A stretch of DNA of 34,036 nt from Verrucomicrobiota bacterium (lineage in GTDB: Bacteria; Verrucomicrobiota; Verrucomicrobiia; Limisphaerales; JACQFS01). The notes beneath the pieces are model-generated. The model had not been told where the DNA came from. It did not search any database and saw only the letters and a list, made by a program, of their open reading frames with translations. Positions 3,682 through 32,244 of the stretch are shown here, piece by piece. The first letter of the stretch is position 1. Each line of letters opens with the position of its first letter. Position numbers and translations under genes: made by a program. Location of the stretch: positions 1 through 34,036 of the forward strand of contig JACQFS010000086.1 of assembly GCA_016199935.1 (NCBI GenBank). The letters run 5' to 3'.

Positions 3682-6069
3682 ATGAAACCGAATCGAATTA
3701 AGCTTCTTTACCTTGCGGGCTTTGTCGCCCTGGCCGTGGCAGCCGGCAAATCAATGGCCGGGACCGTTGCGCCGTATCAGAATGTCACCCCTGCCTCCGA
3801 TCTGCCCACCAATTACAGCATCGGAAAACTGGTTCCGTATCCGTCTTCACCTGCTACGTTTTCGCCTTCAGCTTCGCCAAGCCCTTTGACAAGTTTTCAG
3901 GGCTTGGACGACGACAACACTCAGATCCCTCCGGATACTCAAGGGGCGGTCGGGCCGAACCATGTGATGACAATGTTGAACACTCAGGTTCGAATCCAAA
4001 ACCGAACGGGCACCACGAACTTCCTAACGCAATCACTGGCGAGCTGGTGGTCGAGCTTGGGAACGTTCAATTTTATCACGGACCCCAGAGTGCTCTATGA
4101 TCCTTACCGGCAACGGTGGATTGCGATGACAATTACCGAGCCGCCGCCCTTTGCCGCAAATGCGTCTATTCTTGTCGGCGTCTCGCAAACCAGTGACCCA
4201 ACCGGCGGATGGTATCGTTTCAGAATTGCGGTGGACCCAACTACGGCGCTTTGGGCGGACTATCCCTCGGTGGGCTTCAACAGCAATTGGATTGTCGCCA
4301 CGGTTAATATGACCACAAATCGAGTCACGAATTCCGGTGGATTTGCAAACGCGCGAGTTTACGCATTCAACAAGACGAACCTTTACGCAGGTGGCACGAA
4401 TTATTCCGTTACAAATCTTTCCCCGAGCTTGGGAGGAACACTCGTTCCGGCCACAACTCAAGACCCAAGCCTGACGACGATGTATCTCGTCCAGACGTGG
4501 GCGACCAACTTGGTGATTAGCGGGAGCACCAATGGTTATCTTAGGCTTTATACCATCACCGGCAACCCTGGAAGCGAACTGCTTACCGCTACACTGTTTT
4601 TTCCGTCTGGGCAGCCTTGGGCGGATGTGCCGCCAACGGGCATCTCCGGGCCACAATCAAATTCGACAGTCAAAATTCACTGTGGCGATTCGCGCATGCA
4701 GAACGTCGTGTATCGAAATGGTTATCTGTGGTGTGCGCAGACCGTGTTTCTGCCATTCAACGCCGCGACTCATTCGGCTGTCCAGTGGTGGCAGATCGGT
4801 CCGGGCGATGGATCCGTGAGCCAAGTCGGCCGACTCGAAGACACTGCCGCAACGCTGTTTTATGCTTTCCCTTCAATCGCCGTTAATCGCTTCGGCGACG
4901 CCCTCATTGGTTATTCGACTTTCTCCACCAACCAGTATGCGAGCGGAGCCTATTCCTACCGGGAATTCAATGACCCACCGGGCACGCTGAGGCCAAGTGT
5001 CGTCCTCAAATCCGGGCAGGGAGTTTATTACAAAACTTTTGGAGGCGGTCGAAACCGGTGGGGAGACTTAAGTGCGACCGTAACAGACCCGTTGAACGAC
5101 GCGGACTTTTGGACCGTGCAGGAATACGCGGCCACGCCGAACGGAACCGGCGCAAGTGACGGAGACGGGCGCTTTGGAGTCTGGTGGGGCAACGCCGTCA
5201 TCACTCCAACCAATGACAATTTTGTCGGGAGTGCCTTAATCTCCGGCGGGGAAGTCTTCGTGCCCGGAACCAACACCAAAGCAACGCCAGAAACCGGCGA
5301 GCCAAGCCATGCCGGTGTCAACAACCCGCCCTCGGTCTGGTATCGGTGGGTCGCTCCCACCAACGGCAGTGTTTCCTTGGATATTCGGACGAACACTTTC
5401 GACACGGTGCTTGCCGTTTATGCCGGCTCGTCGTTGACCAACCTCACTGCGCTCGCCTCGGATCACGGCAGCGCCGGAAGCGGAGCCAGCAAGCTCGTGT
5501 TCACGGCGACCAATGGCGTGACCTATCAAATTGCGGTGGCTGGCTTCGCCAACGCTTCAGGTAGCTTCACCCTGCATCTGATTCAGCCGACGGCTCCGAT
5601 GTTCGCCAATAACCCGGCCAGCACCAACGCCGTGGTCGGCGAAAACGTGACCCTTTATTCACTGGCGGTCGGCATCCCAACGCCCGCCTACCAGTGGCGT
5701 TTTCAGGGAACAAACATTTCAGGAGCGACTTCCAGCAACTTCACCAGAACCAATGTTCAGACCAATCAGGCGGGCGATTATCTCGCTGTGGCCACGAACA
5801 CTTCTGGGGCTGCTACGAGTTCTGTCGCCACCCTGCTCGTGTTCACCAACGCCCAGGCCAAACTCAGTGCGTGGGGCGTCGTGACCAACACCTATCAGTT
5901 CACCGTCACGGGAATCACCAACCGCAGCTACGTCGTGGAGGCGAAGACCAACATCGCGACGAACTTCACCTGGCTGACCTTGAAAACTAACATCTCGCCC
6001 TACATCTACATTGACCTGGACCTGACCAATTTCCCGATGCGCGTTTATCGCGTGAGATTTCTGCCCTGA
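3682..6069 (+). CDS. secreted Thr/Asn-rich protein with pre-peptidase-like and Ig-like domains
   Basis: Function unknown. An N-terminal signal peptide (K/R at 3-7, hydrophobic 8-22, cleavage near SMAG at 24-27) marks it for export. Residues of about 60-500 form a large beta-rich region with no recognised catalytic motif. Residues of about 510-625 resemble the pre-peptidase C-terminal fold (NDNF...SVWYRWVAP...TFDTVLAVYAG). About 630-720 is an Ig-like domain (YQWRFQGTNISGA ... AGDYLAVATN). It ends VYRVRFLP without a sorting helix. The gene has an AAGGA ribosome site 10 bp before the ATG. Its codon use is visibly less GC-rich than that of the flanking genes. It lies 18 bp upstream of a PEP-CTERM gene, probably in one transcript. 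Confidence 0.85.
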   Translation: MKPNRIKLLYLAGFVALAVAAGKSMAGTVAPYQNVTPASDLPTNYSIGKLVPYPSSPATFSPSASPSPLTSFQGLDDDNTQIPPDTQGAVGPNHVMTMLNTQVRIQNRTGTTNFLTQSLASWWSSLGTFNFITDPRVLYDPYRQRWIAMTITEPPPFAANASILVGVSQTSDPTGGWYRFRIAVDPTTALWADYPSVGFNSNWIVATVNMTTNRVTNSGGFANARVYAFNKTNLYAGGTNYSVTNLSPSLGGTLVPATTQDPSLTTMYLVQTWATNLVISGSTNGYLRLYTITGNPGSELLTATLFFPSGQPWADVPPTGISGPQSNSTVKIHCGDSRMQNVVYRNGYLWCAQTVFLPFNAATHSAVQWWQIGPGDGSVSQVGRLEDTAATLFYAFPSIAVNRFGDALIGYSTFSTNQYASGAYSYREFNDPPGTLRPSVVLKSGQGVYYKTFGGGRNRWGDLSATVTDPLNDADFWTVQEYAATPNGTGASDGDGRFGVWWGNAVITPTNDNFVGSALISGGEVFVPGTNTKATPETGEPSHAGVNNPPSVWYRWVAPTNGSVSLDIRTNTFDTVLAVYAGSSLTNLTALASDHGSAGSGASKLVFTATNGVTYQIAVAGFANASGSFTLHLIQPTAPMFANNPASTNAVVGENVTLYSLAVGIPTPAYQWRFQGTNISGATSSNFTRTNVQTNQAGDYLAVATNTSGAATSSVATLLVFTNAQAKLSAWGVVTNTYQFTVTGITNRSYVVEAKTNIATNFTWLTLKTNISPYIYIDLDLTNFPMRVYRVRFLP

Positions 6070-6669: not shown

Positions 6670-7596
6670 TCACGTCTCCGTCACCGTCACCGTGTTGCTG
6701 AAATGCCCCTCGCCGCTGTCGTTCACCCCGCGCACTTTGTAGGTGTGCAGGCCGGCGGTGACGTTCTCCAGCAGCTTTTCCAACTCACCATCGGTGCGGT
6801 CGAGCAGCGTGAACTCGCTCGCGCCCGGTGCTTTTTCCCAGAGCTGGTAGCGGGCGGAACGCGCGGCGGCGGTCCAACTCAGCTTGTAGCGACGGCTGCC
6901 GAGCGATTGCACGGTGAGGGTCGTGACGCCGTCGGGGCGGTCCTGCGCGCCCGGCGGTTTGAAGCCGAAGGTGATCCAGCGCGGATCGAGCGCGTCGAGT
7001 TTCTGTTCGAGTTCGCCGTGCAGGCCGTGCAGGCGGCGGCGCAAGGCTTCCTCGGTGAGGTTGCGCGTGTTCAACGCGCCGTCCTTTTTCACGATGGTGG
7101 GTTTGACGCCGGTGGTGTCGTCGGTCACGGCGGCATCGAGGGCGTCGAGCAACGCCTGGGCGCGGGCGGCGGTGTATTTGTAACGGTCGTCGGGCACGGC
7201 CAGCGTGGGGTGCTCGGTGAGGTATTTCTTTTGCGCGCGGAGCATGGGCATGAGCTTGTCCTCGCCGTTGGGCACGGCGAGGGTCTGGTCGCTGAAGCCG
7301 GCCTCCGTCCACGCAGCGGAGGGTTTCTTGCCGAGGGTCGGAATGAGGAGTTGCTTGGCGGTCATCAGCCAGGCGCGGGCGTTGTCGCGGGCGATGCGCA
7401 GGTCGCGGTAGGCGTCGCGCACTTTCTTGTCGGCACCGTCGAAGGCGAGGCGCGCGTCGCTGAACGCCTGCGCGTCGGACAAGATGACCGGGTTCCGGTT
7501 TTGCAGGAGGCCCAGGGTGTCCTGAAGCTGCTCGGCCCCGTCGGCGGCGTTGAAGCCGAGCGTTTCGAGGTCGTCGAGGTTTTCGGGGAGTTGCAT
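6670..7596 (-). CDS. fibronectin type III domain protein of unknown function
   Basis: No signal peptide is visible. The first two thirds (from MQLPENLDDLETLGF) are helical and charged, with no recognised motif. The last 80 residues form a fibronectin type III domain (SRRYKLSWTAAARSARYQLWEKAP ... TYKVRGVNDSGEGHFSNTV is its core, split here for length). I chose the ATG at 7596 because GAAAGGAA lies about 11 bp upstream. The frame stays open to an ATG at 7734, which would add 46 residues including DDPRLRWGMPGLRYGRP. That stretch also looks translated and may be a short upstream protein or a genuine N-terminus. FN3 domains generally bind proteins or carbohydrates; the role here is unknown. Confidence 0.7.
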   Translation of the reverse strand: MQLPENLDDLETLGFNAADGAEQLQDTLGLLQNRNPVILSDAQAFSDARLAFDGADKKVRDAYRDLRIARDNARAWLMTAKQLLIPTLGKKPSAAWTEAGFSDQTLAVPNGEDKLMPMLRAQKKYLTEHPTLAVPDDRYKYTAARAQALLDALDAAVTDDTTGVKPTIVKKDGALNTRNLTEEALRRRLHGLHGELEQKLDALDPRWITFGFKPPGAQDRPDGVTTLTVQSLGSRRYKLSWTAAARSARYQLWEKAPGASEFTLLDRTDGELEKLLENVTAGLHTYKVRGVNDSGEGHFSNTVTVTET

Positions 7597-7734
7597 GGAG
7601 TGTATGGTTCCTTTCGGATGATTGAGGTTTGGCGGATTGGTGATGTAAGAGGGCAAAGGGCGGCCGTAGCGCAGGCCGGGCATTCCCCAGCGCAGGCGCG
7701 GGTCGTCAAATCTCGGGTATTCGGGGTCGGGCAT

Positions 7735-7798
7735 GGATCAAAGGCATGGAAAAGTGGGGGTTGGCGGCAAGAATGGCTCTTTTTGACCATTTTCAAGG
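7735..7798. other. left flank of the 41-bp repeat array
   Basis: Gene-free flank between the FN3 gene and the array. The segment 7758-7798 has the unit length and weak similarity to the repeat (TTGGCGGCAAGAAT, then a T-run), and may be a decayed seventh unit. No promoter motif was identified. Confidence 0.4.
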
Positions 7799-8044
7799 TT
7801 CCGGCGCGCAGGAAGCACGATGAAAGGCTTTTGGCGAGGTTCCCGCGTGTCGGGAGCACGAAAAATGGCCTTTTTCGACGTTCCGGCGCGTTGGAAGGAG
7901 GACAAAAGGCTTTTGCCGGCGTTCCGGCGCGCGGGAAGGACGTTGGAGAAGTTTTTTTGGCGTTCCGATTGGCGGGAAGAACGAAAAAGGAGCGCGGACG
8001 AGGTTCCAGCGGGCGGGAACCCCGAAAAAAGGAAAACGACGCGC
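7799..8044. repeat. tandem array, six units of exactly 41 bp
   Basis: Units begin at 7799, 7840, 7881, 7922, 7963 and 8004, with no length variation. Each opens with the dyad TTCC-N8-GGAA (GGGA in unit 2), with N8 mostly GGCGCGCG. It continues with an A-rich piece, then AAAGGCTTTTG-like sequence. Units differ at many positions, so the array is old, yet the period is kept. Because 41 is not a multiple of three, this is not a repeated protein; open frames across it on both strands are by-products. It lies between the divergent FN3 and GDSL-esterase genes. It is not CRISPR-like, as there are no unique spacers. Confidence 0.85.
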
Positions 8045-8272
8045 TGCCGGCGACTGGCCCCCCGGTCGGGTGGCTCCATTTCCCAAGCGGTCGCGGAACA
8101 CCGCAAGGGCGTGACGGTTGGCGAACGTGCCTTCATGGAATGACGCGGACTTTCGCGCCATGCCGGGGGATGTCAATTTTTTATTGGACGGTCGGTTCAG
8201 GCTCGCGCGCCGCCAGCCGGTTGCCGGCGAGAGCATTTCCGCTTTGTCTTCCAATGCGAAGGCGGGTTAAAA
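8045..8272. other. gene-free leader of the GDSL esterase gene
   Basis: 228 bp between the array and the esterase start. It should contain the esterase promoter. I saw no convincing promoter boxes, no RNA gene and no further repeat unit. AAGGCGG just before 8273 can act as the ribosome binding site. Confidence 0.4.
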
Positions 8273-8986
8273 ATGGGCCGCTCCATGAAACCCATCACCA
8301 CGTTCCTCTCGCTCGGCCTCCTGCTCGCCGCCGGAATTTTGCCCGCCGCCGAGCCGCTCCGCCTCGCCATCCTCGGCGACTCGACCGTGTGCGCTTATCC
8401 GGCCGACAAATCGGAGCGCGGCTGGGGCATGTATGTGGCGGAGTGGTTCAAACCGGGCACGGTGACGGTGACGAACTTCGCGAAGAGCGGGCGCAGCACC
8501 AAGAGCTTCATCAAGGAAGGCCTGTGGGAAAAGGCGAAGCAGACCAAGCCAGACTTCGTTTTCATTCAATTTGGCCACAACGATTCGCACGCGAAGGGCC
8601 GGCCGGAAGCGACCGACGCCAGCGGCGACTTCAAGGATTTCCTCCGCCGCTACGCCGACGAAGCGCGCGCGCTCGGCGCCACCCCCATCTTCGTCACGCC
8701 GATGCACCGGCGGGTCTTTCATTCGGACGGCACGCTGGACGACATCCTCAAACCCTACGCCGCCGCGATGAAGGAGGTCGCCGCGGAGAAGCACGCCGCG
8801 GTGATTGACCTGCACGCGTCGAGCGGCGCGCTGGTGCTCAAGCTCGGCGAGCAAGCCTCCGCCGCGCACGCGAACAAGGCCGGCGACCGCACGCATTTCA
8901 ACGAAGCTGGTGCGCGCGCGATGGCGGAACTGGTGCGGAAAGAGTTGCCGAAAGCGGAGCCGCGGCTGGCGGAGCGGCTGAAGTGA
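8273..8986 (+). CDS. SGNH/GDSL hydrolase, rhamnogalacturonan acetylesterase-like
   Basis: Exported serine esterase predicted to remove acetyl groups from plant polysaccharides such as pectin. The signal peptide spans about 5-26 (hydrophobic FLSLGLLLAAGIL, cleavage near PAAE). SGNH blocks are clear: GDST with nucleophile S37 (block I), SGRST with G73 (block II), GHND with N103 (block III), and DRTHF with D205 and H208 (block V). The 237-aa length matches rhamnogalacturonan acetylesterases. The ATG at 8273 has AAGGCGG upstream; the in-frame ATG at 8285 (MKPITTFL) is an equally plausible start. The substrate is inferred from the family and from the nearby sulfatase and hydrolase genes. Confidence 0.88.
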   Translation: MGRSMKPITTFLSLGLLLAAGILPAAEPLRLAILGDSTVCAYPADKSERGWGMYVAEWFKPGTVTVTNFAKSGRSTKSFIKEGLWEKAKQTKPDFVFIQFGHNDSHAKGRPEATDASGDFKDFLRRYADEARALGATPIFVTPMHRRVFHSDGTLDDILKPYAAAMKEVAAEKHAAVIDLHASSGALVLKLGEQASAAHANKAGDRTHFNEAGARAMAELVRKELPKAEPRLAERLK

Positions 8987-9165
8987 ACCGGCGGGAAAAA
9001 ATGTTTGCATCTGCCAACGGCTTCGACCAGTTTCACGCGCAGTCAATCAAAGCTGCAAACTTCTCGACCGGCAAAATCCTCCAGTGAACCCCGTTTCAGA
9101 GACCATTTGAATCCCGACGACCGGGAACCGTCCGAGCAAGTGACAGTCAACCAACCACAACCTCC

Positions 9166-16163: not shown

Positions 16164-17287
16164 AGGCGCGGCTCCAGCAGCGCGCGCGCGAACTCGGCTT
16201 CGACGCCTGCCGCGTCACCACCGCCGCCGCGCCCGCCGACGCCGACCATTTTCACGCCTGGCTCGCCGACGGTCGCCACGGAGAAATGACGTGGCTCGCG
16301 CGCAACGCGGACAAGCGCACGGATCCGCAGCGAGTGCTGCCGGGAGCAAGGAGCATCGTGTGCGTGGCCGCGGCTTACTCGGCGGATCGGGCCGAGTCAG
16401 TGGTCAGTGGTCAGTGGTCCGTTGCCAACAACGACGCCGCACGCCCACCACGGACCACGGACCACGGACCACGGACAACTGACCACGGACAACCGACCAC
16501 CGGCGTCGTCGCCCGCTACGCGCGCTTCACGGATTACCACGACGTGCTCGCGGAAAAACTGAAGCAGCTCTCCAATTTCATCTCCACCCTCGCCCCCGAG
16601 TCGCGTTCGCTCTGGTATGTGGACACCGGGCCGCTGCTCGAACGCGACCTCGCGCAACGCGCCGGCCTCGGCTTCATCGGCAAGCACACCAACCTCATCA
16701 GCCGCGGGCTGGGCAACTGGTTTTTCCTCGCCGAAATCCTGACGACGGCGGAGCTGGAGCCGGATGCGCCGGAGAAAAACCGCTGCGGCACCTGCGCGCG
16801 CTGCCTCGCCGCGTGCCCGACGCAGTGCATCACCGCGCCGTTCCAGCTCGACGCGCGCCGCTGCATTTCCTACCTCACCATCGAGCTGAAGGGCAGCATC
16901 CCCGTCGAGCTGCGCCCGCTCATCGGCAACCGCATCTACGGCTGCGACGACTGCCTCGCCGTCTGCCCGTGGAACAAATTCGCGCGCGAAGGCGCGTTGA
17001 TGAAACCGCACGCGCGCGCGGAGTTTTTAACGCCCGACCTGCTGGAGCTGCTCGCGCTCGACAACGCCGGTTTCAAAAAGAAATTCGCCGGCACCCCGAT
17101 GCTGCGGACGAAACGCCGCGGCCTGCTGCGCAACGTCTGCGTCGCCCTCGGCAACGTGGGCGACGCGCACGCACTGCCGGCGCTGCTGAAGGCGACGAGC
17201 GACGCGGAACCGCTCGTTGCGGAACATGCGCGCTGGGCCATGGAGCAAATCGAGGCGAGGGAAAAAGCAGCAAGCGCACGGACGTAG
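16160..17287 (+). CDS. queG: epoxyqueuosine reductase with in-frame repeat insertion
   Basis: Cobalamin- and iron-sulfur-dependent enzyme for the last step of queuosine synthesis in tRNA. The two [4Fe-4S] motifs are CGTCARCLAACP and CDDCLAVCPWNKF, with the catalytic-region blocks GFIGKHTNLIS and WYVDTGPLLERDLA. The C-terminus (about 300-370) looks like a HEAT-repeat segment (LRNVCVALGNVGDAHALPALL). The GTG at 16160 overlaps the aroK stop. Between CVAAAYSAD and VVARYARFTDYHDV, relatives have a short loop. Here about 36 residues (SVVSGQWSVANN ... RTTDHGPRTTDHGQPTTG) are encoded by a palindromic repeat. The frame is kept and all catalytic motifs remain, so the enzyme is probably active. Confidence 0.92.
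   Translation: MKARLQQRARELGFDACRVTTAAAPADADHFHAWLADGRHGEMTWLARNADKRTDPQRVLPGARSIVCVAAAYSADRAESVVSGQWSVANNDAARPPRTTDHGPRTTDHGQPTTGVVARYARFTDYHDVLAEKLKQLSNFISTLAPESRSLWYVDTGPLLERDLAQRAGLGFIGKHTNLISRGLGNWFFLAEILTTAELEPDAPEKNRCGTCARCLAACPTQCITAPFQLDARRCISYLTIELKGSIPVELRPLIGNRIYGCDDCLAVCPWNKFAREGALMKPHARAEFLTPDLLELLALDNAGFKKKFAGTPMLRTKRRGLLRNVCVALGNVGDAHALPALLKATSDAEPLVAEHARWAMEQIEAREKAASART
16396..16503. repeat. palindromic repeat element inside queG
   Basis: About 108 bp made of a left part with three copies of GTCAGTG followed by GTCCGTTG, and a right part with four copies of CCACGGA followed by CAACTGACCACGGAC. The right part is an imperfect reverse complement of the left. The length preserves the reading frame. 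It encodes roughly residues 80-115 of QueG. Confidence 0.85.
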
Positions 17288-29098: not shown

Positions 29099-29329
29099 GG
29101 ACGCGACCGAAAAAGCCGGTTCCCCGACTGCGGAAGCCCGTTCCTCGACCGGGGACGTGAGTTTTCCGGCAGCGGAAATGAATTCCTCGACCGGGAAAGC
29201 GGGTTCCTCGATGGCGGAAGCAAGTTTCTCGACTGCGGAAACGGCTTCCTCGACAGCGGAAGTCAGTTCCGCGACCGAGGAAATGAGTTTTTCGATCGGA
29301 AAAACGAGTTCCTCGACTGAGAAAATCAT
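28895..29329 (-). CDS. possible heptad-repeat coiled-coil protein encoded by the 21-bp array (doubtful)
   Basis: A 144-aa open frame. The first about 75 residues are eleven seven-residue repeats with hydrophobic a and d positions, which would form an amphipathic coiled coil. The remainder is Pro/Arg/Ser-rich with no family resemblance. GAGGAA lies immediately before the ATG, too close for a good ribosome site, and the ATG sits inside the 48-bp palindrome. Preservation of a 21-bp (3n) period without indels is compatible with coding but also with simple slippage. I consider a non-coding DNA element more likely. Confidence 0.2.
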   Translation of the reverse strand: MIFSVEELVFPIEKLISSVAELTSAVEEAVSAVEKLASAIEEPAFPVEEFISAAGKLTSPVEERASAVGEPAFSVASRNIGVLAVASPSPFAPPSRNWAARPAGRGARALLCKAIRGPAEPRPPSESPRCGTRRLITPLSRSKS

Positions 29330-29362
29330 TTCCTCGATCGAGGAAATGATTTTCTCAGTCGC
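29099..29362. repeat. tandem array, about 12 units of 21 bp
   Basis: Eleven full units start at 29120, 29141, 29162, 29183, 29204, 29225, 29246, 29267, 29288, 29309 and 29330. A decayed unit precedes them (29099) and a partial one follows (29351). The consensus is TTCCTCGACNGCGGAANNNAG, with a TTCC-N8-GGAA dyad. Both strands are open across it. The minus strand reads as heptads such as VEELVFP-IEKLISS-VAELTSA-VEEAVSA (V/I at a, mostly L/A at d), an ideal coiled coil. The plus strand reads SSTAEVS-type heptads. It lies between divergent actA and the 119-aa protein gene. It is not CRISPR, having no spacers. Confidence 0.88.
29314..29361. repeat. perfect 48-bp palindrome at the end of the 21-bp array
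   Basis: Two 24-nt arms with no loop and no mismatch, centred between 29337 and 29338. The left arm begins CGACTGAGAAAATC and ends TTCCTCGA; the right arm is its exact reverse complement. It consists of the last full unit (itself the palindrome TTCCTCGA/TCGAGGAA) flanked by the preceding unit and an inverted partial copy of it. Confidence 0.95.
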
Positions 29363-32144: not shown

Positions 32145-32244
32145 GAAACGCGGAAGGCGGAACGCGGAGCGCGGAAAGGGAAAACGTCCGGCGCGCGAAA
32201 TGCCGGGGCCGCGTTCCGCGTTCCGAGTTTCGCGTTCCGCGTTG
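32145..32244. repeat. palindromic cluster of GCGGAACGCGGAA words
   Basis: The left half (32145-32180) has AACGCGGAAGGCGGAACGCG; the right half (32210-32244) has GCGTTCCGCGTTCCGAG and a further CGCGTTCCGCG. The halves are inverted relative to each other, with internal direct repetition. It fills the 105-bp gap between the CorA gene and the histidine kinase gene, both on the minus strand. Confidence 0.75.

Follow-up and report, generated by a model that had tools for sequence, protein, structure and literature searches.

The array between gene X and a hydrolase gene

The window, by which we mean the whole stretch of 34,036 nucleotides that was analysed, is an entire contig (C162) of a Verrucomicrobiota genome of 5.0 Mb that is 97.7% complete. 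Two divergent genes, at 6670–7734 on the minus strand and at 8273–8986 on the plus strand, enclose a tandem array at 7799–8044, an arrangement already given correctly in a first-pass annotation of the sequence. The minus-strand gene, which we call X, encodes a helical bundle with a C-terminal FN3 domain. Its conserved start is an ATG at 7596, which gives a protein of 308 aa and is separated from the array by 202 nt; for a second ATG in the same frame, at 7734, the distance is 65 nt. The leader between array and conserved start (7597–7798, minus strand) contains an in-frame N-terminal peptide. By eye, the X proteins of this order, and those of a further family Y described below, seem to have in common a short peptide (RFD..., DSGxRYD) that precedes the conserved start. 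It was noted at loci L132, L426, L443 and L449 and in the window (7597–7734) and is possibly a tag or leader peptide. The plus-strand gene encodes a GDSL/SGNH hydrolase, whose homologues elsewhere have no array nearby. We therefore take this gene as a bystander and reject the array as its operator. A terminator or a shared divergent promoter was likewise rejected, since the neighbours of TTCC-type arrays show no orientation bias.

The array consists of six units of exactly 41 bp, starting at 7799, 7840, 7881, 7922, 7963 and 8004. The identity at a lag of 41 is 0.64 over 7799–8044, as compared with 0.20–0.35 at lags 36–40 and 42–46 and with a maximum of 0.40 in 20,000 mononucleotide shuffles, and the mean pairwise identity of the units is 0.61. 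Tandem Repeats Finder (TRF) reported 7798–7942 with period 41, a score of 143 and 0% indels, and the alignment of the six units likewise contains substitutions and no indels, as the annotation had claimed. Its argument that a period not divisible by three excludes a protein repeat also holds, as the period is 41 throughout without indels.

Each unit contains two palindromes, neither of which is assigned to a strand. Palindrome A, TTCC-N8-GGAA, occupies the first 16 bp of each unit (TTCCGGCGCGCAGGAA at 7799–7814 in unit 1, repeated at the five later unit starts). It was said to open every unit and is exact in five of the six, unit 2 reading TTCC-N8-GGGA. Palindrome B, with the consensus AAAAGGCTTTT, lies in unit 1 in the TGAAAGGCTTTT region (7822–7832, dyad at 7827) and is best preserved in units 1–3; the GGCTTTT-like half that had been ascribed to all units has decayed in units 4–6. 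The dyads of A and B are exactly 20.5 bp apart, and the mirror symmetry of the array has a z of 4.2. A dyad spacing of 20.5 bp repeats only as 41, so that the odd period is explained by the half-unit. The earlier inference that DNA length is constrained is supported, with the qualification that the constraint is a half-unit dyad spacing of 20.5–21 bp.

In the window's genome, pairs of the TTCC-N8-GGAA motif with period 41 occur solely at 7799–8044, and no second copy of a 451-base piece around the array (7700–8150) was found there. Elsewhere in the window, a second TTCC-N8-GGAA array of period 21 (29120–29356) lies between other divergent genes and terminates in a 48-bp perfect palindrome (29314–29361); its single relative is 73% identical (G000:C247:26466–26758), with about 75 bp shared past the array. 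Two heptamer arrays, of ACCACGG at 16447–16500 and of CCGCGTT at 32209–32243, resemble intergenic heptamer repeats of unknown function that were noted previously (PMC6344855).

Geometry and distribution of the arrays

Is the half-unit spacing confined to this locus? In 48 other distinct 41-bp TTCC arrays the mean complementarity is highest at a distance of 20.5 bp from the dyad of A (z 10.6), and in 60 other distinct 42-bp TTCC arrays at 21.0 bp (z 12.9); the window array fits this half-period rule though it stands outside that set. The stems extend past the fixed ends of A and, in B, comprise about five pairs; the central 3–4 bases and most linkers show little or no complementarity. Complementarity at the two outer pairs of N8 was counted in 61 and 58 of 91 arrays, against 31 and 26 expected. 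Indeed, the N8 letters vary between arrays with complementarity preserved, and in some arrays entire stems are swapped for other complementary stems. Sequence changes from array to array, also within one genome, and geometry stays constant. A periodic sequence with one global mirror necessarily gains a second mirror half a period off. The actual finding is that the arrays possess mirror symmetry at all, and in two separate stems.

Mirror symmetry was also found without any selection on DNA: 56% of 48 non-redundant arrays located via their protein neighbours are mirror-symmetric at p ≤ 0.05. TTCC-N8-GGAA is present in only 5 of these 48 arrays, and as our early searches had selected for the motif, we reject a universal TTCC..GGAA element. 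The array is not a CRISPR either, as the whole 41-bp unit is repeated with both halves degenerate, without identical repeats and unique spacers. Since sense-strand stems show no wobble excess (32 G-T versus 39 A-C), a reading as RNA is disfavoured, and with no Rfam match in addition we reject an RNA element.

Similarly spaced palindromes occur at five other places in the window's genome, with spacings of 21 or 42 bp, and repeated palindrome pairs in 196 genomes of the order are dominated by spacings of 21, 41 and 42 bp. A scan of named genomes admitted 40–42 bp only and is silent on other periods. Among the matches listed there, most are from Bacteroidota, and Fibrobacter, Caldithrix, Acidobacteria, Deltaproteobacteria, Symploca, Anaerolinea and Verrucomicrobia labels also appear; period 41 was found at least 122 times and period 42 at least 144 times, about equally often. 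When 19–49 bp were allowed in 18 of those genomes, the matches listed were nearly all at 21, 41 or 42 bp, and a reversed control pattern gave no match over the same spacings and genomes. The class comprises periods of 41 or 42 bp and not 41 alone.

To be independent of the motif, we also considered any self-complementary 4+N8+4 anchor in five genomes and measured periods on genome stretches. In such pattern-free stretches of Segatella maculosa and of a Tannerella bin, palindrome pairs lie 20–23 and 40–46 bp apart and scarcely elsewhere, and in the order relative G005 mainly 40–43 bp apart; the pattern-free sample of the window's own genome was too array-poor to inform on spacing. Tandem arrays occur at 55–172 per Mb in the sampled genomes. 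In Segatella they have mainly periods of 22–23 and 44–46 bp, and in G005 10 of 14 have a period of 41–43 bp.

Some further observations concern neighbouring forms of repeat. In the 400 kb of loci L278–L297 of Segatella maculosa there are 69 tandem arrays; 33 have period 22 and many are palindromic. We regard them as a related form of lattice, in which the spacing differs slightly. In Hoylesella enoeca, locus L346 carries inverted copies of a 22/44-bp array at 4174–4317 and 8998–9118, 95% identical and about 4.7 kb apart. Three genomes of the same phylum as the window (G049, G152, G155) contain, at many loci, TTCC(A/C)AAGCCTTGGGAA-type palindrome pairs about 31–32 bp apart, which are a different family, probably regulatory or dispersed.

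Two Carboxylicivirga species share an orthologous 41-bp array in a region of 91% identity; between them it differs by substitutions only, unlike its flanks, which carry indels too. In the shared units the A palindromes are unchanged and the B halves have changed; the TTCC/GGAA ends of this array were selected by the search, the N8 was not. Paralogous X genes have the gene and the leader in common, with DNA homology mostly stopping about 300–470 nt upstream, which is where the arrays start, and some arrays are dispersed within one genome with homology barely past the array. We speculate that whole units would be gained and lost by recombination or slippage and that changes that break the spacing would be removed.

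Arrays upstream of X and DUF6261 genes

The tie of the array to one of its flanking genes is an addition beyond the first-pass annotation. X homologues are found in 17 of 196 genomes of the order, and all four genomes with repeated 41-bp TTCC pairs (G000, G005, G349, G354) encode X. The family found repeatedly next to arrays at Bacteroidota loci is DUF6261 (PF19775). Loci of X and DUF6261 were fetched by protein similarity or by the family model alone and then read for arrays with TRF. An array of 40–43 bp, or its double, lies within 1 kb upstream of 21 of the 31 X genes that have enough upstream sequence, and within 1 kb upstream of 26 of 30 DUF6261 genes (from Bacteroidota and others); none lies downstream in either family, and no TRF-detected array was present upstream of the remaining 10 X and 4 DUF6261 genes. 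As a background, 9 of 730 genes, one of them a DUF6261 gene, have a 40–43-bp array within 200 nt upstream. This limit is tighter than the 1 kb applied to the families. The DUF6261 arrays mostly lie 42–132 nt from the ATG, however, and 21 of these 26, as well as 3 of the 21 X arrays, are also closer than 150–200 nt. We conclude that the arrays are shown to be upstream partners of particular families, of X with its FN3 domain in this order and of DUF6261 in Bacteroidota and some other phyla.

The periods upstream of X and DUF6261 are 41 (24 arrays), 42 (26), 40 (1) and 43 (1), at about 2–14 copies. A variation of copy number at a held period, which had been put forward as a check, is thus met by arrays 5' of X homologues and DUF6261 genes, which is a comparison other than that of the orthologous spacer. 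In the window's genome, X genes at C149 and C168 also have an array, and at C77 a 21-bp array accompanies a diverged X gene; no DUF6261 gene was found in this genome, and 14 control genomes gave no DUF6261 match. The window array satisfies the proposed class, with dyads half a period apart and a position upstream of X, and we state with high confidence that these arrays form a class with shared geometry and gene linkage.

A third family, Y, has an array upstream in three of three cases, at two Bacteroidota loci and at C171 of the window's genome; these cases were found through the arrays themselves. Y proteins (L132, L143, L253) are helical with an 'NNPGG' motif and a beta-rich C-terminus, have no Pfam match and follow 42-bp arrays. 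The genes directly 3' of 42-bp arrays at L162 and L180 resemble AAA-ATPase_like and PDDEXK_9 proteins by eye.

X has no match in Pfam or NCBIfam, and hence none to PF19775. Its model shows long helices followed by FN3 (mean pLDDT 94.1), the FN3 domain being supported by profile and by structure, while the DUF6261 model is all-helical (mean pLDDT 90.9). The two families are alike in being helical and multi-copy and in having a 41/42-bp array upstream; they differ in that no sequence relation is detectable (probability 0.4% in profile comparison) and in that the FN3 end belongs to X. The helices of the two models are similar in order and length by eye, without superposition. A fold search with X matched only via FN3, the helical part never having been a separate query. 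DUF6261 gave no match to the PDB at E ≤ 0.001 in Foldseek and middling helical-bundle scores in a fold search (Z about 10 at best), such as helical bundles commonly give. A DNA-binding domain was not recognised in X or DUF6261, and in the open-access literature we found DUF6261 named in a single, unrelated paper.

Possible roles and relatives of the arrays

What could hold the dyads at this distance? Exact dyad spacing, palindromy and upstream position favour dimers that lie on one face of the DNA and act on the gene. Each palindrome would be the site for one dimer, successive dimers would bind cooperatively on the same helix face two turns apart, and binding would control the downstream gene, whose product would be the likeliest ligand. 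This mechanism is inferred, without binding or expression data, and we put it forward tentatively, without claiming that it is probable. We count in its support the half-period dyads, the palindrome spacings in pattern-free stretches, the nearly exclusive periods of 41 and 42 bp upstream of X and DUF6261, the mirror symmetry found without selection on DNA, and the A palindromes that are unchanged between the Carboxylicivirga species. It is weakened by the lack of a recognised DNA-binding domain in X or DUF6261, by the X and DUF6261 genes without a detected array, by the many arrays that adjoin ordinary genes and by the nearly half of the protein-located arrays that lack significant mirror symmetry. 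The periods of 22–23 and 43–46 bp in some genomes do not fit a strict helical phasing, which also counts against it, as does the lack of a clear promoter motif between array and gene, where a weak TAnnTTTG was found in 3 of 23 cases versus 0.7 expected. The encoded protein as ligand would explain why each gene copy has its own array sequence. By extension, each copy of a multi-copy helical-bundle gene, in several phyla, might recognise its own upstream array, whose geometry is conserved and whose sequence is free; the two would diverge as a pair with every copy and give many DNA-protein pairs per genome, which we consider rather unlikely on present evidence.

A shared host factor, such as a nucleoid-associated protein or silencer, could instead read the dyad spacing, the A-tracts and often the TTCC/GGAA ends, with X and DUF6261 as its most constant targets. 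Such a reader would account for the arrays next to ordinary genes, for the recurrence of TTCC/GGAA ends in several phyla and for an arrangement common to two helical families unrelated by sequence; TTCC/GGAA also ranks first of 256 anchors for the 41/42 class in two of five genomes, although not in all. We nevertheless hold it to be doubtful, as so few protein-located arrays carry the motif, array sequences differ within one genome, and an N8 that varies with its complementarity preserved is needless for a reader of a single sequence.

The mirror symmetry can also be read without any protein: arrays that become single-stranded would fold back, and template switching at the hairpins would perfect palindromes and duplicate units. 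The arrays themselves may then serve hardly any function. Indeed, whole stems are exchanged within arrays, the unpaired centre of 3–4 nt equals the smallest hairpin loop, the window array folds better than its shuffles (z −2.7 as DNA; −3.2 and −1.8 as RNA), and the period-21 array of the window ends in its long perfect palindrome. This process leaves unexplained the constancy of a 41/42 period in different phyla and the position of the arrays, which for two gene families is always upstream and in no case downstream, and we regard it as unlikely.

REP sequences are dispersed palindromic intergenic repeats, some of which adjoin a dedicated RAYT (Y1 transposase) gene. By a similar logic, array and gene might be a dispersing element in which the helical protein acts on the arrays and gene-free arrays are passive copies. 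The genes occur in many copies: one Hoylesella genome gave 31 DUF6261 matches, a few of which are fragments, and G349 gave 89 first-look X candidates, 10 of them scored. Moreover, gene-free arrays are common and some are dispersed in a genome, and the BrickBuilt repeat of Porphyromonas gingivalis has been described as a MITE (PMC4596501). We nonetheless find this very unlikely: no transposase-like domain was found, the homology of recent X paralogues comprises gene and leader and mostly ends near the arrays, and the window array has no second genomic copy. The present system also differs from REP/RAYT in that its gene product is a helical bundle, to which FN3 may be joined, and not a Y1 transposase, and in that array sequence is locus-specific and geometry is what is conserved; the neighbours of the window array, X and the hydrolase, include no Y1-type transposase gene. 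A viral origin is rejected, since the pattern is found in only 57 stretches of 2.9 million viral contigs, with scattered spacings, and PADLOC returned nothing for X; a PHROGs search with X gave one weak match of unknown function. Host factor, hairpin-driven mutation and element spread all remain possible beside the cooperative binding of dimers.

Tandem periods of 41–42 bp, about four helical turns, are also known from chicken satellite repeats, which form very large eukaryotic arrays. They share the tandem period with the arrays described here and differ in host, in size and in having no known gene linkage, and we consider the match likely to be a coincidence of helical geometry. The closest published relative that we found is BrickBuilt, a 23-nt intergenic minisatellite or MITE with a common sequence at 19 loci of one species, whose dyad symmetry is predicted to form long stem-loops, whose copy number varies between strains at a fixed unit length, and which has a leader and a tail with inverted ends and no described protein partner (PMC4596501). 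The window array is likewise intergenic, tandem and dyad-symmetric within its repeats; it differs in its unit of 41 bp instead of 23 nt and in that its region is single-copy, without shared leader or tail copies in the genome.

We found no description of bacterial 41/42-bp palindromic arrays in the open-access literature, an earlier report elsewhere not being excluded. The array taken alone would be a new form of bacterial minisatellite, and the class of array plus gene is apparently new, widespread and undescribed. One geometric rule, a dyad every 20.5–21 bp, thus appears to hold for a large group of intergenic repeats that is common in Bacteroidota and some Verrucomicrobiota. These repeats appear to mark genes of unknown function including DUF6261, for which the upstream array is a first testable handle. 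Many different arrays at equal spacing offer a natural set for studying cooperative DNA binding and, if self-recognition by the encoded proteins were true, would supply many regulators that differ from one another.
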